Positions 45,501 through 60,379 of a stretch of 64,000 nucleotides of DNA are shown here, piece by piece. Under the pieces are notes generated by a model. The model was not told where the DNA came from and did no database searches. It saw only the letters and a program-made list of their open reading frames with translations. Origin of the DNA: a virus; IMG/VR virus record IMGVR_UViG_3300037294_000266, positions 186,001 through 250,000 of that record. One strand, 5' to 3'. The stretch's first letter is position 1, and each line of letters opens with the position of its first letter. Both the position numbers and the translations under genes were made by a program.

Positions 45501-45506
45501 CCATTA

Positions 45507-45534
45507 ACACGCTACCTCGAAAGGGGTAGCGTGT
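45507..45534 (+). terminator. Intergenic hairpin between fibre genes
   Basis: 10-bp stem ACACGCTACC / GGTAGCGTGT followed by GTTATTCG. Probably partial termination, or an RNA processing site that sets the ratio of the two fibres. Confidence 0.55.
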
Positions 45535-45569
45535 GTTATTCGAACCCCTTTTCGTGATGGAGCCTCTTC

Positions 45570-47144
45570 ATGAGTGTACCACCCATTATCCAGTATCCGT
45601 TCGACAGTTCTGGCGAATCGCTAACGAACAAAGTCGAGAATGAGCGGAGAACGATTGCTCTTAATACCGAGCGAGCGTTCGTCCCTGAAGCGGGTCCGTT
45701 TTACACCAGTTCGTTTAAAATCTGGAACGATGAGACCAATGAAGAACTTCGTCCTGTCGACGATTACATTCTGGCTCAGCCGTTTTCCCAGGCATCTATC
45801 CGGACAGCAAAAGATGTTCAGTGCGCAATCATTCTGAAAGTACAAGCGCCTATCAGCGTTCGTTATACGTATCAGGTGGTTGGCGGTGAGTATTCATGGA
45901 ACCTTCAGGGTCTTGCTGATCTCATTGCTGAACTCGATCTCGATGAACGTCCTGTTAAATGGGGCGCTGTCATTGGTCGTCCTAACGCCTATCCGCCAGC
46001 TCCGCACATCCATGACATTGGCGATTCGTTTGGCTGGGAATATGTGGTATGGCAGCTTGAGCGCATTACCAATGCTATCTTGGTTGGTGATGAAGCATCG
46101 CACGATGAACTGCGTCAGCAGATGCAGACTATCCGCGATCAGTTACAGGCTAACATCGATGCATTGGAAGCCAAGGTTGATGAACACATCAACGACTTTG
46201 ACAATCCGCACCAAACCACGAAGGCTCAAGTGGGCCTTGGCCTAGTTGATAACTTCCAGACAGCCTCTCCTGCTGAAGCTTTGGCTGGCGTTCTCGGCAA
46301 TCGGTTCATGACGCCTTCGCTGTCGAATAGCCTGGCTACTCGCATTGCGACTGAAGAAGTGGCAGAGCACGAAGCCCGTAAAGATAATCCACATGAAGTC
46401 ACCAAGGCTCAGACCGGGCTTGGCAATGTGGACAACTTCATTACTGCCACCCGTGCAGAGGCTGAAGCCGGTACTCTCAATACCCGGTTCATGACGCCGT
46501 TGCGGACGAAGGAGGCAATTGATTTCATCGCAGGTAACTTGCTTCAAGCGCACGTTAACGATACCAACAACCCACACATCACTACCAAGGCTCAAGTCGG
46601 GCTTGGTTTGGTTGATAACTTCCAGACAGCTACCAAAGCTGAATCGGAAGCAGGTATCCTCAACAACCGCTTCATGACTCCGTTGCGTACTAAAGAAGCG
46701 ATCAACTTCATCGCTGGTAACTTGATCAATGCTCACTTGGCTGACTTTGGCAACCCTCACCAGGTAACGAAGACGCAGGTCGGCTTGAGTAACATCCCGA
46801 ACGCCATCACTCGTTCCCGTACTGCTAATACCAGTGCTGAACTATTGGTAGCTGGTGCGATGTATGACCATATCCTGTCTGGCGATCACGATAGCCGTTA
46901 TGTCAAGATCAACGTGGCTCAGAATACATCTTTGCGGATCGTAGGATCAACATTGCAGGGTTATGTGTCAGGCGCTTGGCGTCAGATCTGGCCAGCGACA
47001 TGGACTGGTTATGTAACGCCAGGTGCAGCAGATCCATACCCAGGTAACGCTACCGAGATTACTCTGATGAACGCGGGCGGTATTCTGTTCGCTTCTGTCA
47101 ACGGTACGTGGCGTCAGGTGTGGCCAGCTCTCTGGAACGACTAA
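45570..47144 (+). CDS. Second tail fibre protein, paralogue of 43107-45500, 524 aa
   Basis: The N-terminal domain (PPIIQYPFDSSGESLTNKVE) is homologous to that of the preceding fibre. Four shaft repeats (NPHxxTKxQxGLGxVDNF) occupy about residues 205-410. The C-terminal 90 residues are distinct and contain two copies of GxWRQ(I/V)WPA(T/L)W, at about 46971-47003 and 47104-47136. The two fibres may form a branched or sequential assembly. It is followed directly by the hydroxylase and radical SAM genes, making its C-terminus one possible modification substrate. Confidence 0.85.
   Translation: MSVPPIIQYPFDSSGESLTNKVENERRTIALNTERAFVPEAGPFYTSSFKIWNDETNEELRPVDDYILAQPFSQASIRTAKDVQCAIILKVQAPISVRYTYQVVGGEYSWNLQGLADLIAELDLDERPVKWGAVIGRPNAYPPAPHIHDIGDSFGWEYVVWQLERITNAILVGDEASHDELRQQMQTIRDQLQANIDALEAKVDEHINDFDNPHQTTKAQVGLGLVDNFQTASPAEALAGVLGNRFMTPSLSNSLATRIATEEVAEHEARKDNPHEVTKAQTGLGNVDNFITATRAEAEAGTLNTRFMTPLRTKEAIDFIAGNLLQAHVNDTNNPHITTKAQVGLGLVDNFQTATKAESEAGILNNRFMTPLRTKEAINFIAGNLINAHLADFGNPHQVTKTQVGLSNIPNAITRSRTANTSAELLVAGAMYDHILSGDHDSRYVKINVAQNTSLRIVGSTLQGYVSGAWRQIWPATWTGYVTPGAADPYPGNATEITLMNAGGILFASVNGTWRQVWPALWND
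46183..46809 (+). repeat. Four tandem tail-fibre shaft repeats
   Basis: Repeats of about 52-55 codons with NPHxxTKxQxGLG and RFMTPLRTKEAI motifs; the second and third downstream segments (EAGxLNxRFMTPLRTKEAI) are nearly identical. Confidence 0.75.
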
Positions 47145-47165
47145 TGTAAAATGAGGACTCGCAAT

Positions 47166-47678
47166 ATGTTTAAACACATTCAGGATTTTTCATTCGAAGG
47201 TGTTGACCTGTCAGCACTGAGGATAGATGATCTCCTGTCGAGTCCTCTTCCTTACGAACTCGGGCTGCCCAGGTATCTCGAGTACGGCGGTACACATTCG
47301 TTGTTTAACGCAGCTGAATACTTCGAACACAGTCAGACGAAACCCATTAAAGTAGAGGGGATAGAGAGACTCAGTGAATTACTGTACTCGACATCCCTTC
47401 GACTAGGCAGACACTTTAACCACACAGGTCCTGTGTCTTGCCACATGTTCATCTCGCCTGCACAATCACTTAGTTTCCCAATGCATTCTGATACAGACGA
47501 CGTAATCATCTACATGGTCAGCGGCCGTAAGGTTTATGAAGGTGTGGATGGGTCGTTAGAAGTGCGCGCTGGGGACAGTATCTATATTCCGCGTGGTACT
47601 TTGCACTGCGCGGTTAACACTGACGATTCCGTCATGCTCAGCTTTGGGCTTGAACGCTACCTGGAAGATAAATTGTGA
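47166..47678 (+). CDS. JmjC/cupin-like Fe(II)/2OG oxygenase, 170 aa
   Basis: Probable peptide or protein hydroxylase. The double-stranded beta-helix core is at residues about 92-160: FPMHSDTDD gives His107-x-Asp109, VSGRKVYEG the next strand, RAGDSIYIPRGTLHCAV the distal His147. HxD...H is the Fe(II) triad of JmjC-type oxygenases. The ATG at 47166 (MFKHIQDF) is preferred over 47151 because GAGG lies 9 nt upstream. Its end overlaps the start of the first radical SAM gene (GTGA), so the two are co-translated, which suggests a shared substrate. Confidence 0.65.
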   Translation: MFKHIQDFSFEGVDLSALRIDDLLSSPLPYELGLPRYLEYGGTHSLFNAAEYFEHSQTKPIKVEGIERLSELLYSTSLRLGRHFNHTGPVSCHMFISPAQSLSFPMHSDTDDVIIYMVSGRKVYEGVDGSLEVRAGDSIYIPRGTLHCAVNTDDSVMLSFGLERYLEDKL

Positions 47679-48718
47679 GTACTCACAAGACGATCTATGT
47701 CAAGACGACCGGGACATGCAACCTTAACTGCCAACACTGCTTCACGAATGGGAAGAACGGGGATAAAACTCAGTTTGTACCGGAGGTAGTAGCCGGATGG
47801 GTACATGATTACATGGCTCAGCATTCAGCCGATACCAGTTACCACATGGAGTTCCATGGCGGTGAGCCGTTCATTGTTCCATTGGAGAAGCTGAAACAGT
47901 TTGCTGATCATTTTGTTGACATGGAGAACGTTTCCATGTGTGCAAACAGCAATCTGACGTTTAAGCTGACCGATGAGTTAATCGCATTCATCAAAGACTA
48001 TCTTGGTGGGTACGTCGGCACCAGTTGGGACTATTGGATACGTTGGGGAAATGCTAAGCAGTTTGATCTCTGGAAGAAGAATCTGGAGACCCTGCGTTCG
48101 CACGGAATCGGCATCGGTGTTAAAGCATCGGTGAGCCGTCAGCTCATCGAGAAATCGCCAGACTGGTTCATTGATCAGATGGAAGCGCTGGCTATCGAAG
48201 AAGTGAGTCTTGAACGCCTCACCAATGATGGCAGTGCCGTAGATCACTCTGGGATCTTTCCTGACAATGAGGCGCAGGATAACTGGTACCTTGCACTGTA
48301 TCTCCGTTACAAAGAACGAAACCCTCGGGTAAAGATAAAGACCCTTGACATCATCGAACAGAAGCTCATCCAGAACATTGTCAAAGTAGATACCAATTGT
48401 CGAAACTGTGAGCAGAACCTTGTCACGATGAATTCAGATGGGTCTCTTTCAGGATGTCCTAACGCAGCAGCTAGTCTTCATCATGCTAGAATCGATGAAG
48501 GGGTTGAAACGTTCCTTTCTTCAGATGGGCGTATTGATCAGATTGCAAAGGAATTATCTTGGGGAGACACCTGCCTCAACTGTGACGTATTTGATCTTTG
48601 TGGCGGTGATTGTCATCGCTTACCGTGGCAAGAAGGTCGCTGCGGTGGGTTAAAGAACACGCTGCGACATCTTTCTGGCAGACAGCCACAGCAAAACAAC
48701 CTGATTATAAAGGTGTGA
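47675..48718 (+). CDS. Radical SAM/SPASM peptide maturase-like enzyme 1, 347 aa
   Basis: The radical SAM cluster motif is CNLNCQHC (Cys15, 19, 22), followed by MEFHGGEPF (SAM-binding GGE). The C-terminal half has SPASM-type cysteines: CRNCEQN, SGCPN, then CLNCDVFDLCGGDCHRL and a last CGG. SPASM enzymes commonly modify ribosomal peptides by thioether, C-C or epimerising chemistry. It starts with GTG overlapping the hydroxylase stop, with GGAAG 8 nt upstream, and ends 1 nt before the gene for the CHSS-tailed protein, its most likely substrate. Reaction unknown. Confidence 0.85.
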   Translation: MSTHKTIYVKTTGTCNLNCQHCFTNGKNGDKTQFVPEVVAGWVHDYMAQHSADTSYHMEFHGGEPFIVPLEKLKQFADHFVDMENVSMCANSNLTFKLTDELIAFIKDYLGGYVGTSWDYWIRWGNAKQFDLWKKNLETLRSHGIGIGVKASVSRQLIEKSPDWFIDQMEALAIEEVSLERLTNDGSAVDHSGIFPDNEAQDNWYLALYLRYKERNPRVKIKTLDIIEQKLIQNIVKVDTNCRNCEQNLVTMNSDGSLSGCPNAAASLHHARIDEGVETFLSSDGRIDQIAKELSWGDTCLNCDVFDLCGGDCHRLPWQEGRCGGLKNTLRHLSGRQPQQNNLIIKV

Positions 48719-48719
48719 C

Positions 48720-49253
48720 ATGACTGAAATAATTACACGTAACCGAATGGCCGTGAATGCCAACTCGTTGATTACCAATCGATGTAAAGCGGGCATTTCC
48801 TGGGGGACGAACAACTACCCAGCGAACTCCGATCCTGCTTGGTTTGCGGGCACTAACGCAGGCCCTGACGCTGCATTTGGCGGCTATCAGTTTTCAGCCG
48901 GAGTTGCTAACGCACAGCAGGCGATCGACGTACTTAAATATGTCTCTAATCTATTTGCCAGTGTCCGAACCACTCGAATTGTAATTTACATGTCTCACTT
49001 CTCGCTGGGGCAGACTGTTGTTTCCGATAACACTGCAGTTGCTTGGATCAATGCGCCTGCGGCTTTCAGTAATAACGTGGGAATGTGGTTTGCATCGGGA
49101 TATGACATGGATCTTAACGCGTTTAATAACTCGTGTGAGGCTATCTACAGTGCATATCTAGCAACGTGCCGTTATCAGACCGCTACGTTCACCCGAACCA
49201 TTTGCCACACTAGCTGTCATAGCAGCTGTCATAGCAGCCGAGGCCGCCGATGA
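48720..49253 (+). CDS. Candidate modified precursor/virion protein with CHTSCHSSCHSS tail, 177 aa
   Basis: The first 150 residues are Asn/Ala-rich and globular-looking, with no signal peptide. The C-terminus is ICHTSCHSSCHSSRGRR: three Cys-His-(Ser/Thr)-Ser units followed by a basic end. Repeated Cys/His/Ser units at the end of a small protein next to a radical SAM/SPASM gene are the hallmark of RiPP-like precursors, and His-Xaa-Ser repeats are known as radical SAM substrates in the HxsABCD system. The 150-residue body is long for a leader peptide, so the protein may instead be a virion component with a modified or metal-binding tail. Cys139 and Cys151 in the body may also take part. Confidence 0.6.
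   Translation: MTEIITRNRMAVNANSLITNRCKAGISWGTNNYPANSDPAWFAGTNAGPDAAFGGYQFSAGVANAQQAIDVLKYVSNLFASVRTTRIVIYMSHFSLGQTVVSDNTAVAWINAPAAFSNNVGMWFASGYDMDLNAFNNSCEAIYSAYLATCRYQTATFTRTICHTSCHSSCHSSRGRR
49203..49241 (+). repeat. Short tandem DNA repeat encoding CHSS units
   Basis: Three 12-nt units encode Cys-His-Thr/Ser-Ser; the last two are nearly identical at the DNA level (AGCTGTCATAGC twice), allowing expansion or contraction by slippage. Confidence 0.6.
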
Positions 49254-49303
49254 CATGTCATGTAAGTGCCATCAAACGGTCTAGAGAAGCAACTGGAGAA
49301 CCC

Positions 49304-50086
49304 ATGGAACAGACTACTGAAGAAACCAAACCAGGCGGGGCGGTCATCGACGGGCCGGTGATTGTCATTGAAACCACAGCCAATATTCCAATGGACTTAC
49401 TTAAACGTAAGTTCAAAGAGAATATTGAGTTTGTCATCGATGTGGACAACAGTCGTCTTAAAGGCGACATGCTGCTCACCTATCTGTCAAACCTCAAGCT
49501 TAACTGCAAGCTAAAGTTTGGTAGTCTCGAATCGTCTCTCGAACTCCTGTCGTCGTATTTAAAGATGTCTACGGTCATGTCGATTCCAGAATTGGAAGAC
49601 CTGGCCATGAACATCATGCTGGCAGCGTATGGTAAAGATCATTACTGTCAATTCGATCCGACTGAGTTCATTCGTGACAACTCAGACATGATCGACGTGT
49701 GGCTCCGGCGGATGTGTGCACTCCCTTTGTTTGCATTACACTGTCATCCAACGACCAAGGATTTTGTTTCTCAATTCCCAGTCGATGAAGACCATGAGCT
49801 GCACGGTATCAACTACGTGCAACTGATCAAGCACGAACTGTTCCCAGAATTCATCAATGACTTCAATCAAGAAGACATGTCGTACAACAGGTTATTGTTC
49901 AACGAATACTGTTTTGCAGGGCTGAACCTGTTTAACTATTTCGCGATCCCCAATAACCCGTTGTTTGTGGGACTGATGGTACTCGACAAACCAGAACACC
50001 TCGAAGTGCTCATGGCTGCTGCTCATACGACTTACGTGACTGCTGAAACGATCATGAAGGAGCTCGAACATGTACCATCTGTGTAA
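49304..50086 (+). CDS. Unknown island protein, 260 aa
   Basis: The ATG at 49304 (MEQTTEETKPGG) is chosen because GGAG lies 5 nt upstream; a start at 49250 has no such site. An acidic N-terminus is followed by a helical soluble body with scattered Cys/His but no motif. The stop overlaps the next gene by 17 nt. It sits between the candidate substrate and radical SAM 2, so a role as recognition or chaperone protein is possible but not shown. Confidence 0.65.
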   Translation: MEQTTEETKPGGAVIDGPVIVIETTANIPMDLLKRKFKENIEFVIDVDNSRLKGDMLLTYLSNLKLNCKLKFGSLESSLELLSSYLKMSTVMSIPELEDLAMNIMLAAYGKDHYCQFDPTEFIRDNSDMIDVWLRRMCALPLFALHCHPTTKDFVSQFPVDEDHELHGINYVQLIKHELFPEFINDFNQEDMSYNRLLFNEYCFAGLNLFNYFAIPNNPLFVGLMVLDKPEHLEVLMAAAHTTYVTAETIMKELEHVPSV

Positions 50087-51116
50087 ATCGATTTACGTCG
50101 ATAGCGAACACCGCATCGACCGTAATAAAGATGTGATCACAATCTCTCCAAAGATCGGGTTTGAACACATCGCTGAAGAGAAAGGTGTGCAGATCGGTTA
50201 TGCTACAAGTCTGGATGAGTTGTCTCCTGAAGCGTTAGAGGCGATGCTCAACAAAGGTCTTGCTGCCGATGACCGTGTGACCGTCTATTGTGACGGTAAG
50301 ACGTACTTGCGTCTTTACACCATGTTGATAAAGGCTGTATTGCCGAACTTAACACTGGATCTGTTCCGATGGATCATGCTGTGTAAGAAGGCTACTTTCA
50401 ATACGACTATCGTTGCAGGCGGCGAGCCTAACGTGGATGTGTTGGCCAGTATCCAGATCAATAACAAGGTCTGTCACGAGCTCTTCATGGAAGCCAGTAC
50501 TCTGCAACCAGTGATCGATGCACTGGTCAATGAGAACCCAGACTTCCTTTCGCTGGAATGGCGCTTGATTCGTCTGCGTACTGAAGGTCGTGTCGGTAAG
50601 ATCCCAGGTGTACTCAACAACATCCTGCGTCGCATTGCTCTGAGCAATGCTCATGATGCCATGGACGTCTGGGGTCGTCATCTGACCCGCGAGAAGAACT
50701 GGGACATCGCTGGCGCTGATCTCGATACGCTTCTGAACGCACCCACTGTGTTCGAAGGGTGTTTGAACATGCCGCACTTGGCGAGTCAACAACTCCTGCG
50801 TCCTGGTCTGTATGATTTCTCACCGACCAAGCCCTGGATCATCGGCATGCTGCGTGAGGCCGTAGGTCTGATGGAAGTCCTTGAGGACGAGTCATCTGCT
50901 AAACGCGCTGCTCACATTCTTGAGCTGTTTAGTTCACCTGTCAATTTACGTGAGTCTGATGCATGCTTGCAGCGTGTTGTTGATATGTTTGCAGGTGAGA
51001 TGCGCATTGCACTGGCTTTCAAGGATACTGGCAAATACGACGAGAACTTGATTCGGTTCATTCTCGAATCAGATATCGAAGTGCTCAAAACTTCTCTTGA
51101 AGGGGCTGAATGGTAA
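50070..51116 (+). CDS. Unknown island protein, 348 aa
   Basis: Starts with AAGGAG 8 nt before the ATG, inside the previous gene, and ends overlapping the radical SAM 2 start. An N-terminal 90-residue alpha/beta region (ISPKIGFEHIAEEKGVQIG, DRVTVYCDGKTYLRLYTML) is followed by a long helical domain. Not recognised. Strict coupling on both sides suggests it works with the modification enzymes. Confidence 0.65.
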   Translation: MYHLCKSIYVDSEHRIDRNKDVITISPKIGFEHIAEEKGVQIGYATSLDELSPEALEAMLNKGLAADDRVTVYCDGKTYLRLYTMLIKAVLPNLTLDLFRWIMLCKKATFNTTIVAGGEPNVDVLASIQINNKVCHELFMEASTLQPVIDALVNENPDFLSLEWRLIRLRTEGRVGKIPGVLNNILRRIALSNAHDAMDVWGRHLTREKNWDIAGADLDTLLNAPTVFEGCLNMPHLASQQLLRPGLYDFSPTKPWIIGMLREAVGLMEVLEDESSAKRAAHILELFSSPVNLRESDACLQRVVDMFAGEMRIALAFKDTGKYDENLIRFILESDIEVLKTSLEGAEW

Positions 51117-52108
51117 TGGACTTAATTCCCGTATTGAACATACTCGAGCAAAAGAAAGGTAAGTTGAAAGAAGCTCACCTCATTCTGTTCGAGTACTGTA
51201 ATTTACGGTGTTCGTTCTGCCACCAGGACCACGAATCCAGAATCGGCATCAATACGATCCAGCAGAAAGTAGACACACTCATTGCCAACTCAAACCCACG
51301 TGATGCCTACGTGTTGAATTTGACTGGCGGTGAGTTATTTCTTGATGAGTTCAGCGATGGGCTCTTTGAGGAATACTACGAAGCCGGTAAACGTCTCTTA
51401 GAACACTTCGACGATGCGTTGCTGGTGCTGGGTACCAATCTGATCTATCACAATGTAGCGCGGGTCATCAAGCTGGTCAATCGCTTAAAGCGATATGGTC
51501 GTGTGCAACTTGCCACGTCTTACGATCCAGCAGGACGATTCAACGCAGAACAACGGACACTGTTCTTCAAGAACCTTATCCATGTTCGTGACCTTGTACG
51601 CACGGTCAATGTGGTTATCACCAAGCAGAACATCCAGTCGTTTCTGGATGGACATGAAGGTGCCGAGTTCAAGTGGATGTGCGAACACTTTGACGTGTAC
51701 TTCGATCATTACATCCCAAGTCAGATGTACGAGTATATCCAGCCGGATGAAGACCTAATCAGTCAGCTCTACATGCACCTGAACAAACACTACCCAGACT
51801 CGTATCCGATCAAGGACTGGAAGAACAATGTGGAGAATACCACCACTTGTCGATCCACTAAGATCATCAATAAGGATAATGTCGTGACCACCTGTTGGTC
51901 AGAAGCTGGGAAAGACTCTATCTTGGACGAGCAAGAAGGTTTGCTAGCCAAGGATGAGGCCGAGTTGCGGTTCCTTGAGAAATACGACTGCTTTGCCTGT
52001 GAGTTCTACTCGCGATGCGGGATGCGATGTTTCTTGCATCATTCGTTTGTGGATGATGGACTTGACAATGTCTGTCAGATAAAAACGATGTTCAGAGCCA
52101 TCCTGTAA
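51110..52108 (+). CDS. Radical SAM/SPASM-like enzyme 2, 332 aa
   Basis: CNLRCSFC (Cys30, 34, 37) and LNLTGGELF (GGE) define the radical SAM core. The C-terminal cysteines (CRSTK, TTCWSEAG, CFACEFYSRCGMRCF, final CQI) fit an auxiliary Fe-S (SPASM/twitch) region. The start may be the ATG at 51110 or 51116; both follow GAAGGGG. Last gene of the first plus-strand block, ending at the terminator at 52114-52145. Confidence 0.85.
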   Translation: MVMDLIPVLNILEQKKGKLKEAHLILFEYCNLRCSFCHQDHESRIGINTIQQKVDTLIANSNPRDAYVLNLTGGELFLDEFSDGLFEEYYEAGKRLLEHFDDALLVLGTNLIYHNVARVIKLVNRLKRYGRVQLATSYDPAGRFNAEQRTLFFKNLIHVRDLVRTVNVVITKQNIQSFLDGHEGAEFKWMCEHFDVYFDHYIPSQMYEYIQPDEDLISQLYMHLNKHYPDSYPIKDWKNNVENTTTCRSTKIINKDNVVTTCWSEAGKDSILDEQEGLLAKDEAELRFLEKYDCFACEFYSRCGMRCFLHHSFVDDGLDNVCQIKTMFRAIL

Positions 52109-52113
52109 TACGT

Positions 52114-52145
52114 CATAGAGACCGGGCTGATGCCCGGTCTCTATG
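52114..52145. terminator. Bidirectional terminator between convergent genes
   Basis: 14-bp perfect stem CATAGAGACCGGGC / GCCCGGTCTCTATG, loop TGAT, between radical SAM 2 (+) and the ATP-grasp gene (-). Confidence 0.8.
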
Positions 52146-52153
52146 TTGAGTCG

Positions 52154-53212
52154 CTAGGTCACTGCAGCGCACAGATCTTTTACACCCGATGGTGTCAGGT
52201 AACGTTCGGTTCCGAAGAGGTCATTGATGATGTTAGAGATGAACTGTTTGTGTAGGTTAGCGACTGTATTTGCTGGAACGCCTTTTATGCCGAATTGATT
52301 ACAGTATTCGAACACCCCCCATTTCTTATCTTTGGTTACGAATAGATCCAAAGAACTGAGAGGACCTATCACGTCCCGCGCCAATGCGCTTAAATCGTGA
52401 ATTTGTTTAGAGGACAGCACCGACTCGATGGAAACAATGTCTTCACCAAGGATACTGTTTGTGTTCGATCCTGATGCTTGGGGAAACCCATCGGCATTGT
52501 AGACATTACGTTTCTGGACGTAAGCGATCTCGCTCTGCGCGCCAGTGATTATACGGTACTCAGATTCAATATTGTCAACAAACGATTGAATCGAATAACC
52601 TTGGGTTTTTAGACCAGACAGGCCTTCATCGACGTGATGTTCGCCGCGTGTAGAATAAGCCATATCCGGATCGTACTTATTCAGCTCTTCAAACAGTTCT
52701 TTGCTGGTAGACATGCCCTTGATGTACTTATCAAGAGCTTCAATCATTACAGCAAATGGAATCTTATCAGTATCGACAAGAAACTGTCCTATTCCACGAG
52801 CTCCGTCGTTAGGCTTGATGACTACCTTACCACTCGGGTTGACAAGACTACTGAGTCCCAGTGCTTGGGAGTGCACCCATGATTTAATTTTGACGAAGTC
52901 GTCATCGTTAAACTGTAACCGCCCAGCAGTGCGCTTGACATAGTTGTTGATCCGCATTGCCTGTTCGGTTTTACTATACCGGCGATTTACGAACACCATA
53001 TGTGGTGGCAGTATGCGCTCAGCAGCGATCTCATTGATCTTTAAAGTGCCGTCACTGATCATGAAATCAAAGTTGAAATGCTCCTCTCCATCAATGACGC
53101 TAAGTTGAGGGTCGTTGTGGAAGAATATTTGTTTATTGTTAATGACAATGCCTTGATGCAGCACCCAGAAATTGTTCATGAACTTACTAACAACGATATA
53201 TACACGTTCCAT
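52154..53212 (-). CDS. ATP-grasp ligase-like protein, 352 aa
   Basis: The ATP-grasp fold binds ATP and usually joins a carboxylate to an amine. KVVIKPNDGARGIGQFLVD (about residues 127-145) is the nucleotide-binding strand-loop; YSIQSFVDNIESEYRIITG and LDLFVTKDKKWGVFEYCNQFG give the later hinge and metal-binding region. The ATG at 53212 (MERVYIVV) is preferred because AGGAG lies 7 nt upstream. It is transcribed against the surrounding radical SAM genes. ATP-grasp enzymes occur in several RiPP pathways, but some phages use them otherwise, so membership in the island is inferred. Confidence 0.7.
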   Translation of the reverse strand: MERVYIVVSKFMNNFWVLHQGIVINNKQIFFHNDPQLSVIDGEEHFNFDFMISDGTLKINEIAAERILPPHMVFVNRRYSKTEQAMRINNYVKRTAGRLQFNDDDFVKIKSWVHSQALGLSSLVNPSGKVVIKPNDGARGIGQFLVDTDKIPFAVMIEALDKYIKGMSTSKELFEELNKYDPDMAYSTRGEHHVDEGLSGLKTQGYSIQSFVDNIESEYRIITGAQSEIAYVQKRNVYNADGFPQASGSNTNSILGEDIVSIESVLSSKQIHDLSALARDVIGPLSSLDLFVTKDKKWGVFEYCNQFGIKGVPANTVANLHKQFISNIINDLFGTERYLTPSGVKDLCAAVT

Positions 53213-53303
53213 CGGAGACTCCTGATGTTTAGACCATATAAGACCACAGGTAAGTAAAACATAACGATACAATCCCTATGTAATCTTTAATGCTGAGGTC
53301 GAC

Positions 53304-53552
53304 ATGGCAGTCTTTAAAGTAGGGCAAACTGTTTGGGCTGGTAAAATACTCTCCACAGATGCATGCGGTGACCATCCTGCATTTCTACATGCACGAAAGG
53401 GCGACGAGTTAATTGTAATAGCTCACGACGATGATCGCGTTTATCCCTACAGCGTAGCGGATAATCCAGAAGGTAAAGAATCTTTCCGTGCTGCGGCATC
53501 TGATCTGATGGGTCAGAAACCATTCAAGCATAACATCGAACAAGGCTGGTGA
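53304..53552 (+). CDS. Small unknown protein, possibly SH3-like, 82 aa
   Basis: Opens the second plus-strand block. Sequence VGQTVWAGKILSTDACGD followed by ARKGDELIVIAHDDD suggests a small beta-barrel. Not recognised. Ends 4 nt before the 55-codon gene. It could be a recognition or substrate protein for the radical SAM enzymes downstream; there is no direct evidence. Confidence 0.6.
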   Translation: MAVFKVGQTVWAGKILSTDACGDHPAFLHARKGDELIVIAHDDDRVYPYSVADNPEGKESFRAAASDLMGQKPFKHNIEQGW

Positions 53553-53556
53553 GTCC

Positions 53557-53724
53557 ATGACAACTATCTTCGACACGCAAGACAAACCTTTCAAGCCACT
53601 TGAGAAAGATGACGAGTGGCTGTACCAGAAGATGAAGGAGCAGCAAGCGTCTGGTGATGTACGTCGAGATTTCCACAATGAATGGCTTGCACAGCCACCT
53701 GTTATCGAAACATCTGAGGACTGA
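53557..53724 (+). CDS. Tiny unknown protein, possible precursor peptide, 55 aa
   Basis: ATG at 53557, TGA at 53722-53724, between the 82-aa gene and radical SAM 3 with gaps of 4 and 3 nt. It starts MTTIFDTQDKPFKPLEK, is very acidic and helical, contains no Cys, and ends QPPVIETSED. Size and position directly before a radical SAM gene are those of a RiPP precursor, but there is no core-like repeat. Could equally be an accessory protein. Confidence 0.55.
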   Translation: MTTIFDTQDKPFKPLEKDDEWLYQKMKEQQASGDVRRDFHNEWLAQPPVIETSED

Positions 53725-53727
53725 TCT

Positions 53728-54816
53728 GTGGATGTTATAGTTAAACCGACCGTTGCTTGTAATTTTAAGTGTACATTCTGTTCGAGTACTCATTTATCAG
53801 AAAACCCAACAGATATCGTAGAGCTCTCTACGCTTAAGCAGTTTATCCAGCGCTTCCCAGAAACCAATACCGTGATCGTCAATGGTGGAGACCCGCTCAT
53901 GATGCCTCCTGAGTATTACTGGGAGATGATTAAGATGCTGGATGAACTTGATAGTCATGCGAGCATCAGTTTCACCAGTAACCTCTGGCCTTTCTACAAG
54001 AAGCCTGAGATATGGGAAGAGTTATTCAAACATGATCGCCTAGGTATCACGACTTCTTTCCAATACGGTGACAAGCGCCTCAAAGGCGACAAGTCAGTCT
54101 TCACAGAAGAAGACTTCAGGAATGTCAGTGACATGTTCCTTGAACGCATTGGTTACCGTCCTAGCTTCATTGCCGTCATTGACAAGGACAACGAGCACAC
54201 TGTCTTGGACACGGTTCGTCTGGCTAAGGAAATGGGTGTTGAAGCCAAGATCAACCACGTTGTTGCTTCAGGACCCGAAGTGGATAATCGTGGCATCATC
54301 ATGGGCAGTCAGAATAACTTCTTCACTCAGGCGGATATCTACCGTCATTATGTCCAGATCTACGATGCCGGTCTGATGGAGTGGGAATACAACACCAAAC
54401 AGATGGCTAAGAAGCTTAAGGGATTGGCCACTACCTGTCCGTTAGCACGGAACTGCGACAGTGGTATTCGAGCATTGCAGCCTGGCGGTGGTTATTATTC
54501 ATGTGGGTCGTTTGGTGATGATGGCGAACATCCCATTGACTTCGAAGCAGAGATGGCCGGCGAGTTCTTCACCCCACTGCAATACGAAGCCGACTTAGAC
54601 TCGATGAAAGAGTCGTGCTACACATGCCCTATGTTCAGTATTTGTAATGGCTGTCGTAAAACCATTGCAGACACCAAGCGAATGGGACTTGTAGAACATC
54701 ATTGCAAAACCATGAAAGAGATTGCTCCACGGATCATCGATATCAACGGACTGACCGGTAAGGTATTTCCAACGCCATACGTTGACGAATCAGTGCAGCT
54801 CATTGCTAAGGCATAA
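53728..54816 (+). CDS. Radical SAM enzyme 3 with SPASM-like C-terminus, 362 aa
   Basis: Starts with GTG, with GAGG 8 nt upstream. CNFKCTFC (Cys11, 15, 18), then TVIVNGGDPLMMPPEYY, where GGD replaces the usual GGE. C-terminal Cys pairs include CPLARNCDSG, YYSCGSFGDDG, CYTCPMFSICNGC and a final HHC. It lies 3 nt after the stop of the next radical SAM gene's upstream neighbour and 3 nt before radical SAM 4, so the enzymes are made together. The overall layout is that of peptide-modifying maturases; substrate unknown. Confidence 0.85.
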   Translation: MDVIVKPTVACNFKCTFCSSTHLSENPTDIVELSTLKQFIQRFPETNTVIVNGGDPLMMPPEYYWEMIKMLDELDSHASISFTSNLWPFYKKPEIWEELFKHDRLGITTSFQYGDKRLKGDKSVFTEEDFRNVSDMFLERIGYRPSFIAVIDKDNEHTVLDTVRLAKEMGVEAKINHVVASGPEVDNRGIIMGSQNNFFTQADIYRHYVQIYDAGLMEWEYNTKQMAKKLKGLATTCPLARNCDSGIRALQPGGGYYSCGSFGDDGEHPIDFEAEMAGEFFTPLQYEADLDSMKESCYTCPMFSICNGCRKTIADTKRMGLVEHHCKTMKEIAPRIIDINGLTGKVFPTPYVDESVQLIAKA

Positions 54817-54819
54817 TTC

Positions 54820-55746
54820 ATGACAAAGCCTAAAATAAATATCAGTATCAACCCGTGGTATTTCTGTAATTTTAAATGTGACTTCTGCTACTTGACTCCT
54901 GAGCAATTAGGGGATCGAAAGCGTCTTGACCTCGAGACACTCGAACAACGGCTCGATGAACTCCTGCAACATTACGTTATCGGACACATCGATCTATATG
55001 GTGGTGAAGTATTACTACTGCCTGAAGAATACATCAATGCTATCCGTGACATGTTACACGTCCGAGGTATTGATGACTTGGTTCTGGTTACTAACCTGTC
55101 TCATCTCCACCCAGTCGTTCACGAGAAGGATTGGGAAATATCGGTCTCGTATGACTTTGATGCTCGTGAGAAACATGAACATGTGTTACAGAACATGCTT
55201 CTCATGACACAACCTTTCAGTATCTTGTCTCTGGCAGGGCGCCAGTTTCTCGATAAGGTTACTCCAGACATCTACGTCGACACGATGAATATGTTTGGTA
55301 ATCTGAAAGGTTGTGAGATCAAACCTTACAGTAGTAACCAAGCCAACGACCAGCCTGTGACGTACCGAGAATACGAAGAGTTTGTCTGGGCAGTGATTGA
55401 TCATCCGGCTCGTAACTTCTACTTTGAGAACGCCACTCAGGTTGAAGAAGCATTTGAAGGCACTCGTAATTCATTCAGCGATGACCACATCTACATCACA
55501 CCTGAAGGTAAGTTTGCAGTACTGGAGTTCGATGACAATGATCATGAATTCTTTATGCCACTGGAATCGATTGCAGAGTACCAACAGTGGTGTGTAATCG
55601 AGAAGAGCCGTGTTAATGTCAATCCGATCTGTTCGGCATGTCCTTACAACGGATCTTGTCTCTCTGAACACCTTCGTAATGTAACGTCCCTCGATAATTC
55701 CTGTAATGGGTTCCGAGGACTCATTGATAAATGGGGTGCATCGTGA
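54820..55746 (+). CDS. Radical SAM enzyme 4, 308 aa
   Basis: YFCNFKCDFCY gives Cys16, 20 and 23; DLYGGEVLLLP is the GGE motif. It is shorter than its neighbours, with one C-terminal cysteine set (CSACPYNGSC...CNGF), which fits a twitch-type single auxiliary cluster. Overlaps the next gene start by 4 nt (GTGA). Close sequence style to radical SAM 3 (PEEY after the GGE/GGD motif) suggests the pair acts together. Confidence 0.85.
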   Translation: MTKPKINISINPWYFCNFKCDFCYLTPEQLGDRKRLDLETLEQRLDELLQHYVIGHIDLYGGEVLLLPEEYINAIRDMLHVRGIDDLVLVTNLSHLHPVVHEKDWEISVSYDFDAREKHEHVLQNMLLMTQPFSILSLAGRQFLDKVTPDIYVDTMNMFGNLKGCEIKPYSSNQANDQPVTYREYEEFVWAVIDHPARNFYFENATQVEEAFEGTRNSFSDDHIYITPEGKFAVLEFDDNDHEFFMPLESIAEYQQWCVIEKSRVNVNPICSACPYNGSCLSEHLRNVTSLDNSCNGFRGLIDKWGAS

Positions 55747-56795
55747 AAGCTCAACATCTTGAAGTAGAACACAGGCAGCGCCTGGAGATCACTCTCGACA
55801 TCTTTCGAGGGTGTGGTCATAGCTGCTCAGGCTGCATGATCAATACGTCGCTGGGTGGGGATGTCAACGACATTCCTGAACTCCATGCACTGATCAGTGA
55901 AATGGTTGACGTTGGGTATGTGGCGTTTGATCTCGGTGTAGGTCCTACTGATTACATGTCTGCAGACAACACCGCCGAGGTCATGGACCATCCGGTCTTT
56001 CAAGAGATGGCGCAGAAATTCCATCAGGTTACGTTCAACGCAGCGTTCCTTGAGAAAGACATGGAGAAGTATAGGTCGATGTGCGAAGACATTGACCTGG
56101 CACTCCCTGGTAAATCTATACGCTTCTTAATTCCGGCAGCGCCTCCATTTTTCAAGACACACAAGTTTGGCGACATGATTGAATCCAAACTTGAGTTCGT
56201 GAAGGATAATCTACATAGCGCTTACCTGAATGAAGCTGGCTTTGTGGTTAACTGCACGGCAGACACTGTGGGTGATGACTTTGAGGCCATGATGAATAAT
56301 GGCTTTGATATTGAATTCCCTGTTGATAAGGATGATATCTTGAATATCCCTTACGGTCGAGCGCCTGTAAAGGATCTGATGACGGCACAGCACATCAAGC
56401 GGATGTCTCATCGCATCACTCAGTTCTATTCAACACTGAATGGTACAGATGAGCGTCGTCGCAATCCTGATCTCTGCTACCACACCGGTACCATGGTCAA
56501 TCTCCTGTACACCGGCGGTAAGCTTTACTGGGTGCCTTTCCTTAAAGACGACTGCGCGTTCCTTGAAGATGCTTTCTCTGTGTCGAAGCCCTGGTCTATG
56601 GATAATCTCCTAAAGACTCGTCAGGCGGCTCTAGAGAGCGCTCTAGACTACCTTAAGGACACGCCGTGCATGACCTGTCCTTATCTGAGCAGTTGTTCAG
56701 AGAAAGGTATCATTAACATCATGGAACACATGCAGATCCGTGATTGTCTAGTTGGGTTAGAACATGTTAAATCAACCGCAGAGTCCAGCGTTTAA
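55743..56795 (+). CDS. Radical SAM enzyme 5, 350 aa
   Basis: GTG at 55743 (MKAQHLEVEH) is preferred over ATG 55731: GGGG lies 7 nt upstream and the 4-nt GTGA overlap with the previous stop is typical. RGCGHSCSGCM gives Cys24, 28 and 31. The GGE segment is replaced by FDLGVGPTDYM. The C-terminal cluster is CMTCPYLSSC...DCLVGL. It is clearly related to radical SAM 6, whose start it overlaps by 32 nt, and differs in style from radical SAM 1-4. Confidence 0.8.
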   Translation: MKAQHLEVEHRQRLEITLDIFRGCGHSCSGCMINTSLGGDVNDIPELHALISEMVDVGYVAFDLGVGPTDYMSADNTAEVMDHPVFQEMAQKFHQVTFNAAFLEKDMEKYRSMCEDIDLALPGKSIRFLIPAAPPFFKTHKFGDMIESKLEFVKDNLHSAYLNEAGFVVNCTADTVGDDFEAMMNNGFDIEFPVDKDDILNIPYGRAPVKDLMTAQHIKRMSHRITQFYSTLNGTDERRRNPDLCYHTGTMVNLLYTGGKLYWVPFLKDDCAFLEDAFSVSKPWSMDNLLKTRQAALESALDYLKDTPCMTCPYLSSCSEKGIINIMEHMQIRDCLVGLEHVKSTAESSV

Positions 56796-57744
56796 TCTGA
56801 CCCTTGAGATTCTACAGGGGTGTAAGTACAACTGCGTAGGCTGTATGGTCGATAAAGACTACGAGCCTCTTATTCCATTTGACCAGGACACGGATAAGAT
56901 CCTTGAAATGGTCGATGCGATGAAAGCTGAAGGGTATCGGACTCGAGAGTTTACAATCGGGCCAGTGGATGTCATCAGCTCGAAGACAGGGGATTCGATA
57001 TTCGATCATCGCTTGATTAAGGGGCTGGCTGAGCGGTTTGAATCTGTCGTCATTCCGTTAGCACTGATGAAAGGGAAGTCGTTTACACTGGCCACTCCTT
57101 TCCAGCTAAAGAGTACTGACAACCCTAAACACGTCGATCTAATAAAGCGTCGTGTGATGTTCATCCAAGCGTCATTGCCTGACGTTAAATTTGAGCTACT
57201 GTACATTACCGTTAACATGATTGGCGATGCAGTAGATGCATTTGATGTTGCATTAAACCGAAGACTCCATGATATTGATTTTGGTGTCAGACGACTCATT
57301 GAGTTTGTATTCCCTCACCCTAGAAAGGGGTTGGATAATTTACTCATGCAGAACTTGTTTAAGCGCAACTTCGGACATTTCTGTGACGTCATTAAACAGT
57401 GTAAGAACACTGATCTAAATCGTCATCTCATTAAACCAGCTGATGATAGCTACGAAACAACCTATCGTGATGGCAGACTGTATTACACACCGACACTGAT
57501 CGAGAAGTTTCCTATATTCGATCCGATGTTTGAAATAACGTCTCCATGGACTCTCGAGAAGATAGAGCTGTTCAAGATGGATCTCTATCTAGACAGTCTG
57601 GTTAAATATTCAGTGAGCGGACCGTGCAGTAAGTGTTGTAATTTAAGTAAGTGTGCTGAGGGCGATGTTCACTCCATCATGACTCATTTGAATGACTCGA
57701 CTTGTCTGGTATCTCTTTATAACGACTGGAGTGTGATAACGTGA
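56764..57744 (+). CDS. Radical SAM enzyme 6, paralogue of enzyme 5, 326 aa
   Basis: LQGCKYNCVGCM gives Cys20, 24 and 27; EFTIGPVDVIS replaces the GGE motif as in enzyme 5. C-terminal CSKCCNLSKC...TCLVSL matches the auxiliary cluster of enzyme 5. The two arose by tandem duplication and may form a heterodimer or act in sequence. The ribosome-binding site is poor, so expression likely depends on coupling to enzyme 5. Confidence 0.8.
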   Translation: MLNQPQSPAFNLTLEILQGCKYNCVGCMVDKDYEPLIPFDQDTDKILEMVDAMKAEGYRTREFTIGPVDVISSKTGDSIFDHRLIKGLAERFESVVIPLALMKGKSFTLATPFQLKSTDNPKHVDLIKRRVMFIQASLPDVKFELLYITVNMIGDAVDAFDVALNRRLHDIDFGVRRLIEFVFPHPRKGLDNLLMQNLFKRNFGHFCDVIKQCKNTDLNRHLIKPADDSYETTYRDGRLYYTPTLIEKFPIFDPMFEITSPWTLEKIELFKMDLYLDSLVKYSVSGPCSKCCNLSKCAEGDVHSIMTHLNDSTCLVSLYNDWSVIT

Positions 57745-58178
57745 GTAAGGAAGAACAGCTTACTTTTATTCAGTTAGAACAGATGCCTTTTCCAGATTGG
57801 CTGATAGACGCTGTCCTTTGTGAACCTAACAAAGCGTTCATTGAGACAGCGTCTATCAACGACTACGTCAACAGCATCATACTGCCAATTGTTGCTGATG
57901 AACTCAACTGGCCAGACAATCTGCAAGTGACAGCAAACCATGTCCATTGTAGCAGTGACGGACTCGAGCCACACGACCATCTCCCTCACGAATACACTTC
58001 AGTACTCTATCTCATTGATGCCGAAGGTGATCTGATTGTTCATGACGATGGCGAACACCGTGTCACGCCAGCAGAAGGTCGGTTTGTTCTGATGGACGCT
58101 CGTCTTAAACACAGTGTTGAACCATCCAACTGCATGCGTATTTCTCTGGTGACCAACTATGCAACCACCTGCCTATAA
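57741..58178 (+). CDS. Small Fe(II)/2OG oxygenase-like protein, 145 aa
   Basis: Starts with GTG overlapping the radical SAM 6 stop (GTGA). The jelly-roll core is EPHDHLPHEYTSVLYLIDAE (His78, His80, His83), LIVHDD, then DARLKHSVEPSNCMRISL with distal His124 and Arg133 for 2OG binding. The layout matches prolyl-hydroxylase-like oxygenases; which of the three early histidines bind iron is unclear. Short even for the family, so it has little beyond the catalytic core. Confidence 0.6.
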   Translation: MSKEEQLTFIQLEQMPFPDWLIDAVLCEPNKAFIETASINDYVNSIILPIVADELNWPDNLQVTANHVHCSSDGLEPHDHLPHEYTSVLYLIDAEGDLIVHDDGEHRVTPAEGRFVLMDARLKHSVEPSNCMRISLVTNYATTCL

Positions 58179-58593
58179 AGACTATCAACTGCTCTACGAT
58201 GAATATGTCCAAGAGCATGCTGACGATTTTGCTAACATGGAAATCGTTGAGGATCCTGAACTTGTGGAAAACGCGCTCCATTACTTCAAGGAAGCGTCTT
58301 TCCCGCTCATCTATCCGGCTAAGAGTTATGCGGTGGCTATCATTTACGCCACTAAGATTCATGAACTCTACGATATCCCAGTCAAGACGACCTTGAATGA
58401 TCCCGATCTATTCTTAGGACATGACCGGTACTTCGTTCCGTATGAGCTAGATCCCCACACCTACGACGCTATCTTGGCTCGCTTAGAGACTATTCCTAAT
58501 TGGATGGAATCTGGCTGGGCTCCGCAGTCGGTGAAGTACTGTCTTTTAGAATGTACTGAAGACGGTGTCAACTCGGTATTGAGCGGAGAGTGA
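58159..58593 (+). CDS. Unknown island protein, 144 aa
   Basis: ATG 20 nt before the end of the preceding oxygenase gene; stop just before the next oxygenase. Acidic, aromatic-rich (many Tyr/Asp), no motif recognised and no metal-ligand pattern. It lies between oxygenases, so it may be a partner or substrate, but this is only position. Confidence 0.6.
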   Translation: MQPPAYKDYQLLYDEYVQEHADDFANMEIVEDPELVENALHYFKEASFPLIYPAKSYAVAIIYATKIHELYDIPVKTTLNDPDLFLGHDRYFVPYELDPHTYDAILARLETIPNWMESGWAPQSVKYCLLECTEDGVNSVLSGE

Positions 58594-58595
58594 CC

Positions 58596-59153
58596 ATGAA
58601 CTATCTAGAGCCGTGGAAGACTGAGATCGGGCATTTCAACGTGGCTGATCAGTTTGACATGACGGCCTTTGGTGAAGAGATATTTACGTTATTTGCCATG
58701 ACCAATGGAGAGGACGAAAGTCAACGTAAGATTGACCCTTCGACGTTTCCTGTCCTTCTGAAGATGCGTGATGAAACAATAACGCCAGCGGTCATTGAAT
58801 ATACGAAACGTTGTTTCAACTACGACATGGATAAGTTCTATGTTGAAAGTAATGGTAAGTGGATTGCAGAAGGTGAGGGACTGTATCCACATTGGCATCC
58901 TGGCTCAGTCATCTCGGTCATCTGCTATCCAGTAGATTCTGCAAATGGTTTGAACATGTTCGATCCTAAGGGGAACGCCATTCGGGGTTATCCTAAAGAG
59001 ATGCGATGGGGACATTTTGCCAACTTGAACATCTCGCCTAAAGCAGGTGACATCTTCATATTCCCCAGTTACCTCCAACACAGCGTAAGTCATGTGACAG
59101 AAGAGGTGCGGTTGTCTCTGCTCCACGAGTATTATGTCACCCACAATTTATAG
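58596..59153 (+). CDS. 2OG-Fe(II) oxygenase, small hydroxylase family, 185 aa
   Basis: ATG 58596 (MNYLEPWK) has GGAG 7 nt upstream; a GTG at 58590 would add two residues. Motifs match the phage/bacterial putative 2OG oxygenase family: YPHWHPGSVISVICYP (His99, His101), LNMFDPKG, KAGDIFIFPSYLQHSVSHVTEEVRLSL (His162 and the Arg for 2OG). Likely hydroxylates a protein or peptide side chain. It is a paralogue of 59166-59717 and lies directly before it. Confidence 0.75.
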   Translation: MNYLEPWKTEIGHFNVADQFDMTAFGEEIFTLFAMTNGEDESQRKIDPSTFPVLLKMRDETITPAVIEYTKRCFNYDMDKFYVESNGKWIAEGEGLYPHWHPGSVISVICYPVDSANGLNMFDPKGNAIRGYPKEMRWGHFANLNISPKAGDIFIFPSYLQHSVSHVTEEVRLSLLHEYYVTHNL

Positions 59154-59165
59154 GAAGTACGTACA

Positions 59166-59717
59166 ATGAAAATCATTCAGCCGTGGAAGATAGAGATCGC
59201 CCAGTACAATCTTCTCGAACAGGTGGATAACAGTGCCATCACCGAAGAAGTCCACATGCTTCACTGCCTATCTCCACGTGACTCTCTGACACCTCTGGTA
59301 GTGACTCCAGAGCAATTCCCAGCGTTGTGTCACTTCCGTGACAAGATTGTTCACGGACTGGTGGTTGATTACATTCGCCGAGTGTTCGGTGTTGAGCCAT
59401 TCGATATTGCTACCGATACGTTTGGCAAGGTGTTCGACAAGCAACAAGGACTTGGCAGTCACTTGCATGGCAACTCGTGCCTGACGAGCGTGTACTATCC
59501 TAGCGATTCTGATGCAGGGATGTCTCTGGCAGACCCGCGCTTCAATGCATCTCGTGGATATCCGCGTTCGATACGTGATAACCACTTTGGCGAGTTCTAT
59601 GTGGCGCCTAAGGCAGGTGATCTCTGGATCATGCCTAGCTATATCCAGCACAGTGTTGCTCCAAGTACAGAAGAGATGCGTCTCTCTCTAATCAATGACT
59701 TTCATTTCAAGGCATAA
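59166..59717 (+). CDS. 2OG-Fe(II) oxygenase, paralogue of the preceding gene, 183 aa
   Basis: Same layout: QPWKIEIAQYN at the N-terminus, GSHLHGNSCLTSVYYP (His99, His101), MSLADPR, then KAGDLWIMPSYIQHSVAPSTEEMRLSL (His162, Arg). Equal length and metal-site spacing to 58596-59153 show a tandem duplication. Divergence around the substrate loop suggests different positions on one substrate. GGAAGTACGTACA precedes the ATG. Confidence 0.75.
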   Translation: MKIIQPWKIEIAQYNLLEQVDNSAITEEVHMLHCLSPRDSLTPLVVTPEQFPALCHFRDKIVHGLVVDYIRRVFGVEPFDIATDTFGKVFDKQQGLGSHLHGNSCLTSVYYPSDSDAGMSLADPRFNASRGYPRSIRDNHFGEFYVAPKAGDLWIMPSYIQHSVAPSTEEMRLSLINDFHFKA

Positions 59718-59719
59718 TC

Positions 59720-60379
59720 ATGACTGATGAAGAGAATGGCTTGTATCCAGGTGTAGACCGTGGCATGTTCCGGGTCATGCGTCTTCTAGATAACTCAGGT
59801 GTCCAATTGAAAGCACAGGTACGGATCAAGAATCTGTCTGTCTTCAACTTCCTGAGCGATCTCCAATATGCTGTAATTGGCTATGGTCTCGAATGGTGGC
59901 GTGATGGTGAACCAGGTCCTCATGAGGCCGGTGAAGCAAATCCGTACATCCCACGCGGCCGTCCTAACATCAGTCGGTTGTACTTCAGGGGTAAGACCAG
60001 TATTACTCCAAAGATGTTGCACTTAGAGGATGCGGTCATCAATGACTTCATCAACTCTAAAGCTCTGGCTGATCCGATGACATACTCGACGTATGCATTG
60101 GAAGCCGCTGAACAAACCAGCAGTGCGGCTGTATGGCGTGATCTGGGTAAAACAGCATTCCAGTATGCCAACGCAGTTCATATTACCAAGTTAGAAGCTT
60201 CCTCCACCACCCCTCTTGAAATTGTGGTTGAGGGTCTGCGCTTCGAGTACCGTCGTAAAGCGTCTCCAGATATTGTGAAGACTGCAGACATTAAACCGTA
60301 CAAGTTCACCAAACTTCGTGATTGTTACGAAGCCATGCAAACATTTATCGAAAATGAGGTTACCAATGGCGATTTCTAA
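59720..60379 (+). CDS. Unknown protein, possibly tail-associated, 219 aa
   Basis: Starts 3 nt after the oxygenase stop and overlaps the endolysin start. Mixed alpha/beta, with an RGRPNISRLYFRGK stretch and no membrane segment. Not recognised. Co-transcribed with both modification and lysis genes, so a late function is likely. Confidence 0.6.
   Translation: MTDEENGLYPGVDRGMFRVMRLLDNSGVQLKAQVRIKNLSVFNFLSDLQYAVIGYGLEWWRDGEPGPHEAGEANPYIPRGRPNISRLYFRGKTSITPKMLHLEDAVINDFINSKALADPMTYSTYALEAAEQTSSAAVWRDLGKTAFQYANAVHITKLEASSTTPLEIVVEGLRFEYRRKASPDIVKTADIKPYKFTKLRDCYEAMQTFIENEVTNGDF

Follow-up and report, generated by a model that had tools for sequence, protein, structure and literature searches.

Gene content of the radical SAM island

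We analyzed a 64,000-nucleotide stretch (the window; positions 186,001 to 250,000) of the 266,646-base IMG/VR virus record IMGVR_UViG_3300037294_000266, with window coordinates used throughout, and focused on an island of radical S-adenosylmethionine (rSAM) enzyme genes at 47151-59717 and on a small protein encoded within it that we propose as their substrate. The record has phiKZ-like features, such as an RNA polymerase beta subunit (phrog_3148). Nearly every open reading frame (ORF) of the island is on the plus strand, with ends that abut or overlap, as a first-pass annotation made from the letters of the window had described, and all Pfam rSAM matches of the 266.6-kb genome fall inside it. 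The six CxxxCxxC rSAM proteins counted in that annotation were all recovered, each on the plus strand; against the Pfam Radical_SAM model (cut-off 29.5 bits), rSAM-C and rSAM-D scored above the cut-off, rSAM-A, rSAM-B and rSAM-F were significant but below it, and rSAM-E had no Pfam match.

The key gene, overlooked in the first-pass annotation, lies at 48720-49253 (plus strand), directly 3' of rSAM-A, and encodes the proposed substrate, a protein of 177 aa in which a folded N-terminal domain is followed by C-terminal CHxx repeats ending in RGRR. Its C-terminus reads ICHTSCHSSCHSSRGRR (also written TRTICHTSCHSSCHSSRGRR), and the proposed modified core, CHTSCHSSCHSSRGRR, forms the extreme C-terminus (49203-49250, plus strand). 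The AlphaFold2 model had a mean predicted local distance difference test (pLDDT) score of 89.8, with 53-66 in the tail; the predicted fold had no match in the PDB and matched gp170 of Agrobacterium phage Atu_ph07 in BFVD (E = 1.5e-4). The tail pattern gave 0 chance matches in shuffles of the window, and the substrate tail held the only CH..CH motif of the whole phage genome. Homologues occur in loci L001-L011 and in Pseudomonas phage DT01; the relatives that a whole-protein search found in 11 IMG/VR loci have the same ending.

The adjoining rSAM-A (47675-48718, plus strand; CNLNCQHCF motif; Radical_SAM E = 2e-5, below cut-off) is an rSAM/SPASM protein. The auxiliary-cluster cysteines reported earlier were evident in its seven-Cys SPASM pattern (C245..G256x4C261, C300x2C303x5C309x3C313, C323) and in the CxxC/Cx5C of rSAM-C; all ten rSAM and SPASM cysteines of rSAM-A were invariant in a 17-sequence alignment (A2). 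rSAM-A fell slightly short of the curated cut-off of TIGR04085 (26.4 against 27 bits); its top NCBIfam matches were AmcB, PapB, anSME, YhhB and DynA, all far below their cut-offs, and among its PDB profile matches were several rSAM proteins, including the anaerobic sulfatase-maturating enzyme. By these comparisons, rSAM-A is nearest in sequence to peptide-modifying rSAM proteins.

The other genes of the conserved cassette surround this pair. Upstream is a cupin/JmjC_2-like oxygenase with an HSD...H triad (47151-47678, plus strand), already noted as JmjC-like, which passed both JmjC_2 (37.2 bits, cut-off 22) and Cupin_2 (40.5 bits, cut-off 27.2) and is found directly 5' of rSAM-A in most phage loci. 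Downstream is a conserved core gene for a helper protein (49250-50086, plus strand, with an ATG at 49304 that may be the true start; phrog_20767, PHROG E = 4e-36), modeled with a pLDDT of 87.6; its fold had no match in the PDB, and a role as RiPP (ribosomally synthesized and posttranslationally modified peptide) recognition domain could not be shown from that matchless search. The predicted folds of substrate and helper thus gave no indication of function. Next come scf, a 348-aa conserved protein without a Pfam family (50070-51116, plus strand), rSAM-B (51110-52108, plus strand; CNLRCSFC; Radical_SAM E = 4.4e-5, below cut-off), which is kept in syntenic order, rSAM-C (53728-54816, plus strand; CNFKCTFC; 44.3 bits) and rSAM-D (54820-55746, plus strand; CNFKCDFC; 36.8 bits).

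Conservation of the CHxx tail and its association with rSAM genes

The degenerate pattern CHxxCHxxCxxxRxRR-stop was scanned across viral contigs and gave at least 120 stretches, compared with 1 for a composition-matched motif with HC swapped for CH. Once translated, the matches were nearly all CH[ASTN]SCHSSCHGSRGRR-stop or near variants, at the ends of proteins of ∼120 to 370 aa. Of the 119 motif loci, 98 had rSAM ORFs in the flank; for 20 of the 21 others, the rSAM ORFs, usually 4 to 8 copies, lay at another place on the contig. Thus, 118 of 119 motif loci had rSAM genes, while PF04055 was detected in none of 45 viral contigs picked by an unrelated pattern (Fisher p ∼1e-39, an index only, as the loci are related by descent).

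The association also held in the opposite direction. Among the best 80 of 357 confirmed viral relatives found with an rSAM-A profile, 77 were followed immediately, on the same strand, by an ORF with a CH tail. A RiPP locus likewise has a precursor gene with a conserved core next to its tailoring enzymes. Two of the three exceptions (L241 and L262) were contig ends, and the third (L249) had an internal core: its protein (5056-5997) contains CHTSCHSSCHDSCHG, then continues to ...DSDERLK, where a Pfam S74 domain starts (44.8 bits, cut-off 22). No S74 domain was found by Pfam in the window substrate. S74 domains cut themselves off after trimer assembly, and such self-cleavage in L249 would put the CH core close to the C-terminus that results.

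In the rSAM-anchored set, C-16, H-15, C-12, H-11, C-8, H-7, R-4, R-2 and R-1 were 98-100% conserved. The 146 distinct DNA tails used TGT/TGC 245/193 times and CAT/CAC 220/218 times, and this free use of both Cys and both His codons means that selection acts on the peptide. Moreover, the gene beside rSAM-A ends in CHTSCHTSCHSARGRR in DT01, CHSSCHTSCHGSRGRR in Burkholderia phage FLC6, CHSSCHASCHNSRSRR in Atu_ph07 and CHTSCHASCHSSRSRR in Sinorhizobium phage Phosso; N-terminally, the Atu_ph07 and Phosso substrates could hardly be aligned by eye.

The CHxx repeats might instead build a metal-binding or disulfide-linked needle tip, with the rSAM enzymes acting on another target. Spaced Cys/His repeats would suit metal ligands, and HxH motifs bind metal ions at the fibre tips of other phages. 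However, metal binding by itself requires no rSAM enzyme, and the association between tail and rSAM-A runs both ways, with rSAM-A, substrate and helper as direct neighbors for 81 substrates, so that the tail protein is the evident target of the enzymes. We therefore consider a needle tip of this kind unlikely, while metal binding by a modified tail is possible.

Longer and duplicated forms of the tail were also seen. In L237 (5022-5717) and L245 (5030-5737), tails have grown to 11 CHxx units with SNVPV/SNVV spacers, as (CHSSCHSNVPV)n. Some motif carriers were tandem pairs of ∼130 aa each: smaller viral contigs (L017, L042, L050, L085, L102 and others) encode two tandem ∼130-aa CH-tailed proteins with rSAM genes further off, and both substrate types are present on contig IMGVR_UViG_3300025138_000014 (L094 and L110). 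A tblastn search with two small-contig substrate types against the phage collection found no isolates. When tail residues were compared with the presence of oxygenases or rSAM-E/F, the first repeat was mostly CHTS in jumbo-phage relatives carrying rSAM-E/F, an observation confounded by relatedness.

Gene order in jumbo phages and other viral contigs

The profile census revealed the order cupin, rSAM-A, substrate, helper, scf, rSAM-B, rSAM-C, rSAM-D, (rSAM-E, rSAM-F), oxygenases and p58, which is common to the viral contigs, DT01, FLC6, Atu_ph07 and Phosso. The gene-neighborhood comparison suggested in the first-pass annotation thus found the core, cupin-A-substrate-helper-B-C-D, kept in jumbo phages of Pseudomonas, Burkholderia, Agrobacterium and Sinorhizobium. 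rSAM-A shared 77% identity with its DT01 counterpart and 36% with that of Atu_ph07, and identities to the Burkholderia, Agrobacterium and Sinorhizobium phages were 54-60% for rSAM-C and 46-49% for rSAM-D. Among 58 loci of at least 12 kb, the helper was found in 54, rSAM-A in 53, rSAM-B in 42, the cupin in 40, scf in 38, rSAM-C in 37 and rSAM-D in 34, counts that are too low for the later genes, as the flanks of the loci are often cut. Oxygenases occurred in about half of these loci and rSAM-E/F in fewer; by this distribution, the oxygenases are accessory rather than core. In the FLC6 cassette, two adjoining dihydrofolate reductase-like genes (L014, 21325-22538) lie between rSAM-B and rSAM-C.

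This synteny bears on what the enzymes act upon. Directly upstream of the cassette are two large virion/tail proteins in which NPHxVTKxQVGLG units recur (43083-47144, plus strand; phrog_2163, E = 8e-136 and 2e-128), and their position would fit a pathway that acts on these repeat tail fibres (43083 and 45570) and leaves the small CH protein unmodified. Yet the cassette travels with the CH protein across lineages, and CH..CH is absent elsewhere in the genome, which makes the large fibres a very unlikely target. The earlier guess of a virion-type target is thereby retained, with a dedicated small CHxx-tailed protein, not the large repeat fibres, as the likely target.

The same synteny argues against reading the rSAM and oxygenase genes as auxiliary metabolic genes (AMGs) for host metabolism, such as haem or vitamin synthesis. 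Marine virome studies list phage rSAM genes and "ahbD" as AMGs (PMC7150976, PMC9301287), but in phages unrelated to one another the genes described here keep their order around a protein with a CH tail. Moreover, in agreement with the earlier remark that the island lacks primary-metabolism genes, the scanned proteins scored far below the cut-offs of metabolic NCBIfam models (AhbC/AhbD, MoaA and QueE), and no primary-metabolism partner genes were found. An AMG function is accordingly exceedingly improbable, and some of the virome AMG calls may be misread parts of the cassette.

Cassettes in predatory bacteria

A single scan of 84,980 species genomes returned 25 stretches, and inspection of the protein ends showed 16 of them, from 14 genomes, to be genuine. 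By name, eight genomes belong to Bdellovibrionota families, and a ninth is also placed in that phylum; among 291 sampled Bdellovibrionota genomes, eight had the motif. In the predator loci, rSAM-A, substrate and helper occur together, the cupin was not found, and the substrate N-terminal domains share homology with those of the phages (E as low as 2.6e-11). The clusters of L172-L175 are embedded in ordinary chromosomal genes, with neighbors such as 3-hydroxyacyl-CoA dehydrogenase and cbb3 oxidase by Pfam, and acyl-CoA dehydrogenase-, ABC transporter- and acyl-CoA synthetase-like genes by eye. Together with the candidate substrate and the synteny in unrelated jumbo phages and other viral contigs, these copies support the earlier proposal of a single, common peptide-modification pathway whose target is a virion protein.

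In three of five predator clusters (L172, L173 and L174), an S74-bearing protein lies beside the cluster; it carries a pilin N_methyl motif in L173 and a pilin-like N-terminus by eye in L172, and in L174 its N-terminus falls outside the fetched stretch. Prey handling has been linked both to type IV pili and to S74 fibres (PMC4237445, PMC10769870). In addition, a conserved ∼200-aa partner flanks the predator clusters (L172, 6155-7824; L173, 15456-17205; L174, 3-1729; L176, 15129-15755), and an rSAM protein with a weak B12-binding match lies beside the cassette in L172 (17072-18811), with a similar long protein in L174 (3769-5481). The other genome matches of the scan sit on smaller contigs of metagenome-assembled genomes and could be phage DNA.

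Link to the virion and comparison with known systems

For Atu_ph07, 131 virion proteins are reported from electrospray ionization tandem mass spectrometry, most of them in three clusters, including coding sequences 170-215 (PMC6102473). By RefSeq numbering, gp170 is the CH protein, gp198 the portal and gp215 the major head protein; that is, the cluster begins exactly at the substrate gene. The range gp164-169, with rSAM-B to rSAM-D and the helper, ends immediately before it, and rSAM-A (gp171) and the cupin (gp172) fall within the stated range of the cluster. The cluster limits would fit a substrate in the particle and enzymes outside it, and detection of gp170 in the virion may be inferred from them.

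The virion link also bears on a true RiPP, in which the CH tail would be released as a small modified peptide for antibacterial action, superinfection exclusion or signaling, with the N-terminal domain as leader. An rSAM/SPASM enzyme next to a C-terminal repeat rich in Cys has the layout of a RiPP, and the top NCBIfam matches are RiPP maturases. However, the gene sits among tail genes, the Atu_ph07 homologue stands at the boundary of the published virion cluster, no protease or transporter family was recognized in the island, and the core is nearly invariant on a divergent carrier domain, opposite to what is seen in many RiPPs. We regard release of the peptide as quite unlikely.

Compared with the RiPP rSAM/SPASM maturases (AmcB, PapB, DynA, FxsB and anSME), the cassette shares the CxxxCxxC core, the SPASM cysteines and an adjacent Cys-repeat substrate; unlike them, its best curated score is 53.6 against a required 425 bits, four core rSAM enzymes occur as a set, and the target resembles a virion structural protein. 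Because it would work in a RiPP-like way with no release or export genes recognized, it is best described as a variant rather than a standard RiPP cassette. The His-Xaa-Ser system (HxsA/B/C/D) is similar in that paired rSAM enzymes lie beside an H-x-S-repeat protein, whereas the substrate described here repeats C-H-x-S and always ends in RGRR; this assignment was rejected, given 27.9 against 370 bits for HxsB, 16.9 and 24.7 against 267.9 bits for HxsC, and no HxsD match among the island proteins scanned. A darobactin or dynobactin maturase was likewise dismissed (DarE, 32.8 against 650 bits; DynA, 48.7 against 450 bits), as were the sulfatase maturase and haem-synthesis readings, with curated scores far below cut-offs. 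S74-chaperoned tail fibres and the MAT fibres of Bdellovibrio offer another parallel, as L249 carries S74 after its CH core and predator clusters adjoin S74 proteins, but most substrates here stop at RGRR without S74. Predators use S74 MAT fibres against prey, in a paper that makes no mention of radical SAM (PMC10769870).

The first-pass annotation knew of no described case in a jumbo phage. rSAM clusters had in fact been reported (PMC12390700, PMC8066314, PMC11898562, PMC5468394), among them eight rSAM genes in 332-Vera that were called highly unusual (PMC12390700); these reports, in their available parts, offer no explanation. The rSAM/cupin/2-oxoglutarate (2OG) oxygenase clusters listed there for FLC6, S13, 332-Vera and phiRP12/RP31 contain the same kind of genes, with no substrate or pathway named in the parts available, and the CH-tailed protein with rSAM-A is present in FLC6 and in the 222,888-bp IMG/VR record L059. 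In pelagimyophages, rSAM cassettes lie in the host-recognition region (PMC7029224). A literature search that covered few subscription journals and no preprints found no paper in which rSAM genes of phages are connected with a substrate in the virion. The CHxx tail and adjacent SPASM-type rSAM enzyme define a very large system that is apparently undescribed.

Proposed mechanism

We consider it quite probable that the island is a RiPP-like cassette that matures the C-terminal tip of one virion-type or adhesin protein. This proposal builds on features read from the DNA, namely, the candidate substrate, the conservation and repeat expansion of its tail, synteny, the two-way rSAM association, the predator copies and the S74 fusion; what we infer is that the CH tail is the site of modification, which type of chemistry takes place there and that it serves in contact with the host. 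The substrate would be translated first, with a folded N-terminal domain and an exposed CHxx tail closed by RGRR. rSAM-A with the helper, and rSAM-B, rSAM-C and rSAM-D, would then introduce cross-links or other C-H activations on tail Cys, His and Ser; the JmjC-like cupin may add further oxidations, as may the 2OG-type enzymes in about half of the loci and rSAM-E/F in fewer. SPASM rSAM enzymes commonly form thioether or C-C cross-links or oxidize Cys or Ser in peptides, and hydroxylation of His or Arg is catalyzed by ribosomal oxygenases among the JmjC_2 proteins; given these target residues, a tail of Cys, His, Ser and Arg would suit both chemistries. The finished protein would enter the particle, most likely to form the distal tip of a fibre or other tail appendage, and would touch the host envelope with its modified tail. 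In predators, the homologous protein may do the same job on the predator surface.

Several points weigh against this proposal. No modification has been observed anywhere, and no enzyme reaches a curated peptide-maturase cut-off. No leader peptidase or exporter family was recognized among the island proteins, several of whose ORFs have no family, and the island is therefore not a standard RiPP cluster. One of the 119 motif contigs, an 18-kb fragment, has no rSAM gene. The motif-derived set is biased toward the residues of the search pattern, and the rSAM-derived set, free of that bias, favors close rSAM-A relatives. Localization to the virion is supported indirectly, by one published cluster boundary in Atu_ph07.

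A broader proposal is plausible if somewhat doubtful: phages and predators would share a RiPP-like CHxS-repeat tip made by a four-rSAM cassette, this tip would breach or recognize the Gram-negative prey envelope through a common target, and many virome rSAM AMGs would belong to the cassette. If the proposed maturation is real, many phage tips bear an enzyme-made, nonstandard peptide structure that is invisible to sequence-based host-range work. Moreover, the unexplained rSAM clusters of jumbo phages would gain a function and the four-enzyme rSAM pathway a concrete substrate, and phages and predatory bacteria would be linked by a common mode of meeting prey.

Accessory genes and neighboring features

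Downstream of rSAM-D are two divergent and accessory rSAM proteins that are homologous to each other, rSAM-E (55731-56795, plus strand; CGHSCSGC) and rSAM-F (56764-57744, plus strand; CKYNCVGC; Radical_SAM E = 9e-4). Of the three small proteins previously called 2OG oxygenase-like, all accessory and on the plus strand, those at 58590-59153 (41.8 bits) and 59166-59717 (42.7 bits) passed 2OG-FeII_Oxy_5 (cut-off 27), whereas the one at 57741-58178 was marginal (2OG-FeII_Oxy_3, 26.4 against 27 bits). The former two have HWH and HLH, respectively, in place of the usual HxD, which makes their activity uncertain. Between these genes lies a 144-aa conserved protein (58159-58593, plus strand; phrog_20737, PHROG E = 3e-34) with homologues in Atu_ph07, Phosso, FLC6 and predators.

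The claimed ATP-grasp protein (52154-53272, minus strand) did not hold up: its best Pfam match had an E of 0.025, and PDB sequences gave no ATP-grasp match. It was rejected as a pathway member, being on the opposite strand and present in 6 loci overall (closest relatives only; 5 of those of at least 12 kb), and is placed outside the conserved system; it resembles a later insertion into the island. The small ORF at 53304-53552 (plus strand) had no Pfam match.

The island is flanked by tail/baseplate genes and a lytic hub-like protein: a baseplate assembly/spike protein and PAAR tip protein (40587-41665, plus strand; phrog_3216, E = 2.5e-73; phrog_281, E = 1.9e-12) precede it and a lytic/baseplate-hub-like protein (60318-61085, plus strand; phrog_4928, E = 2e-66; phrog_196 baseplate hub, E = 3e-37) follows. 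Farther upstream, a 2070-aa tail fibre protein (phrog_3201; 16498-22710) has a transglycosylase-like C-terminal region (phrog_4067).

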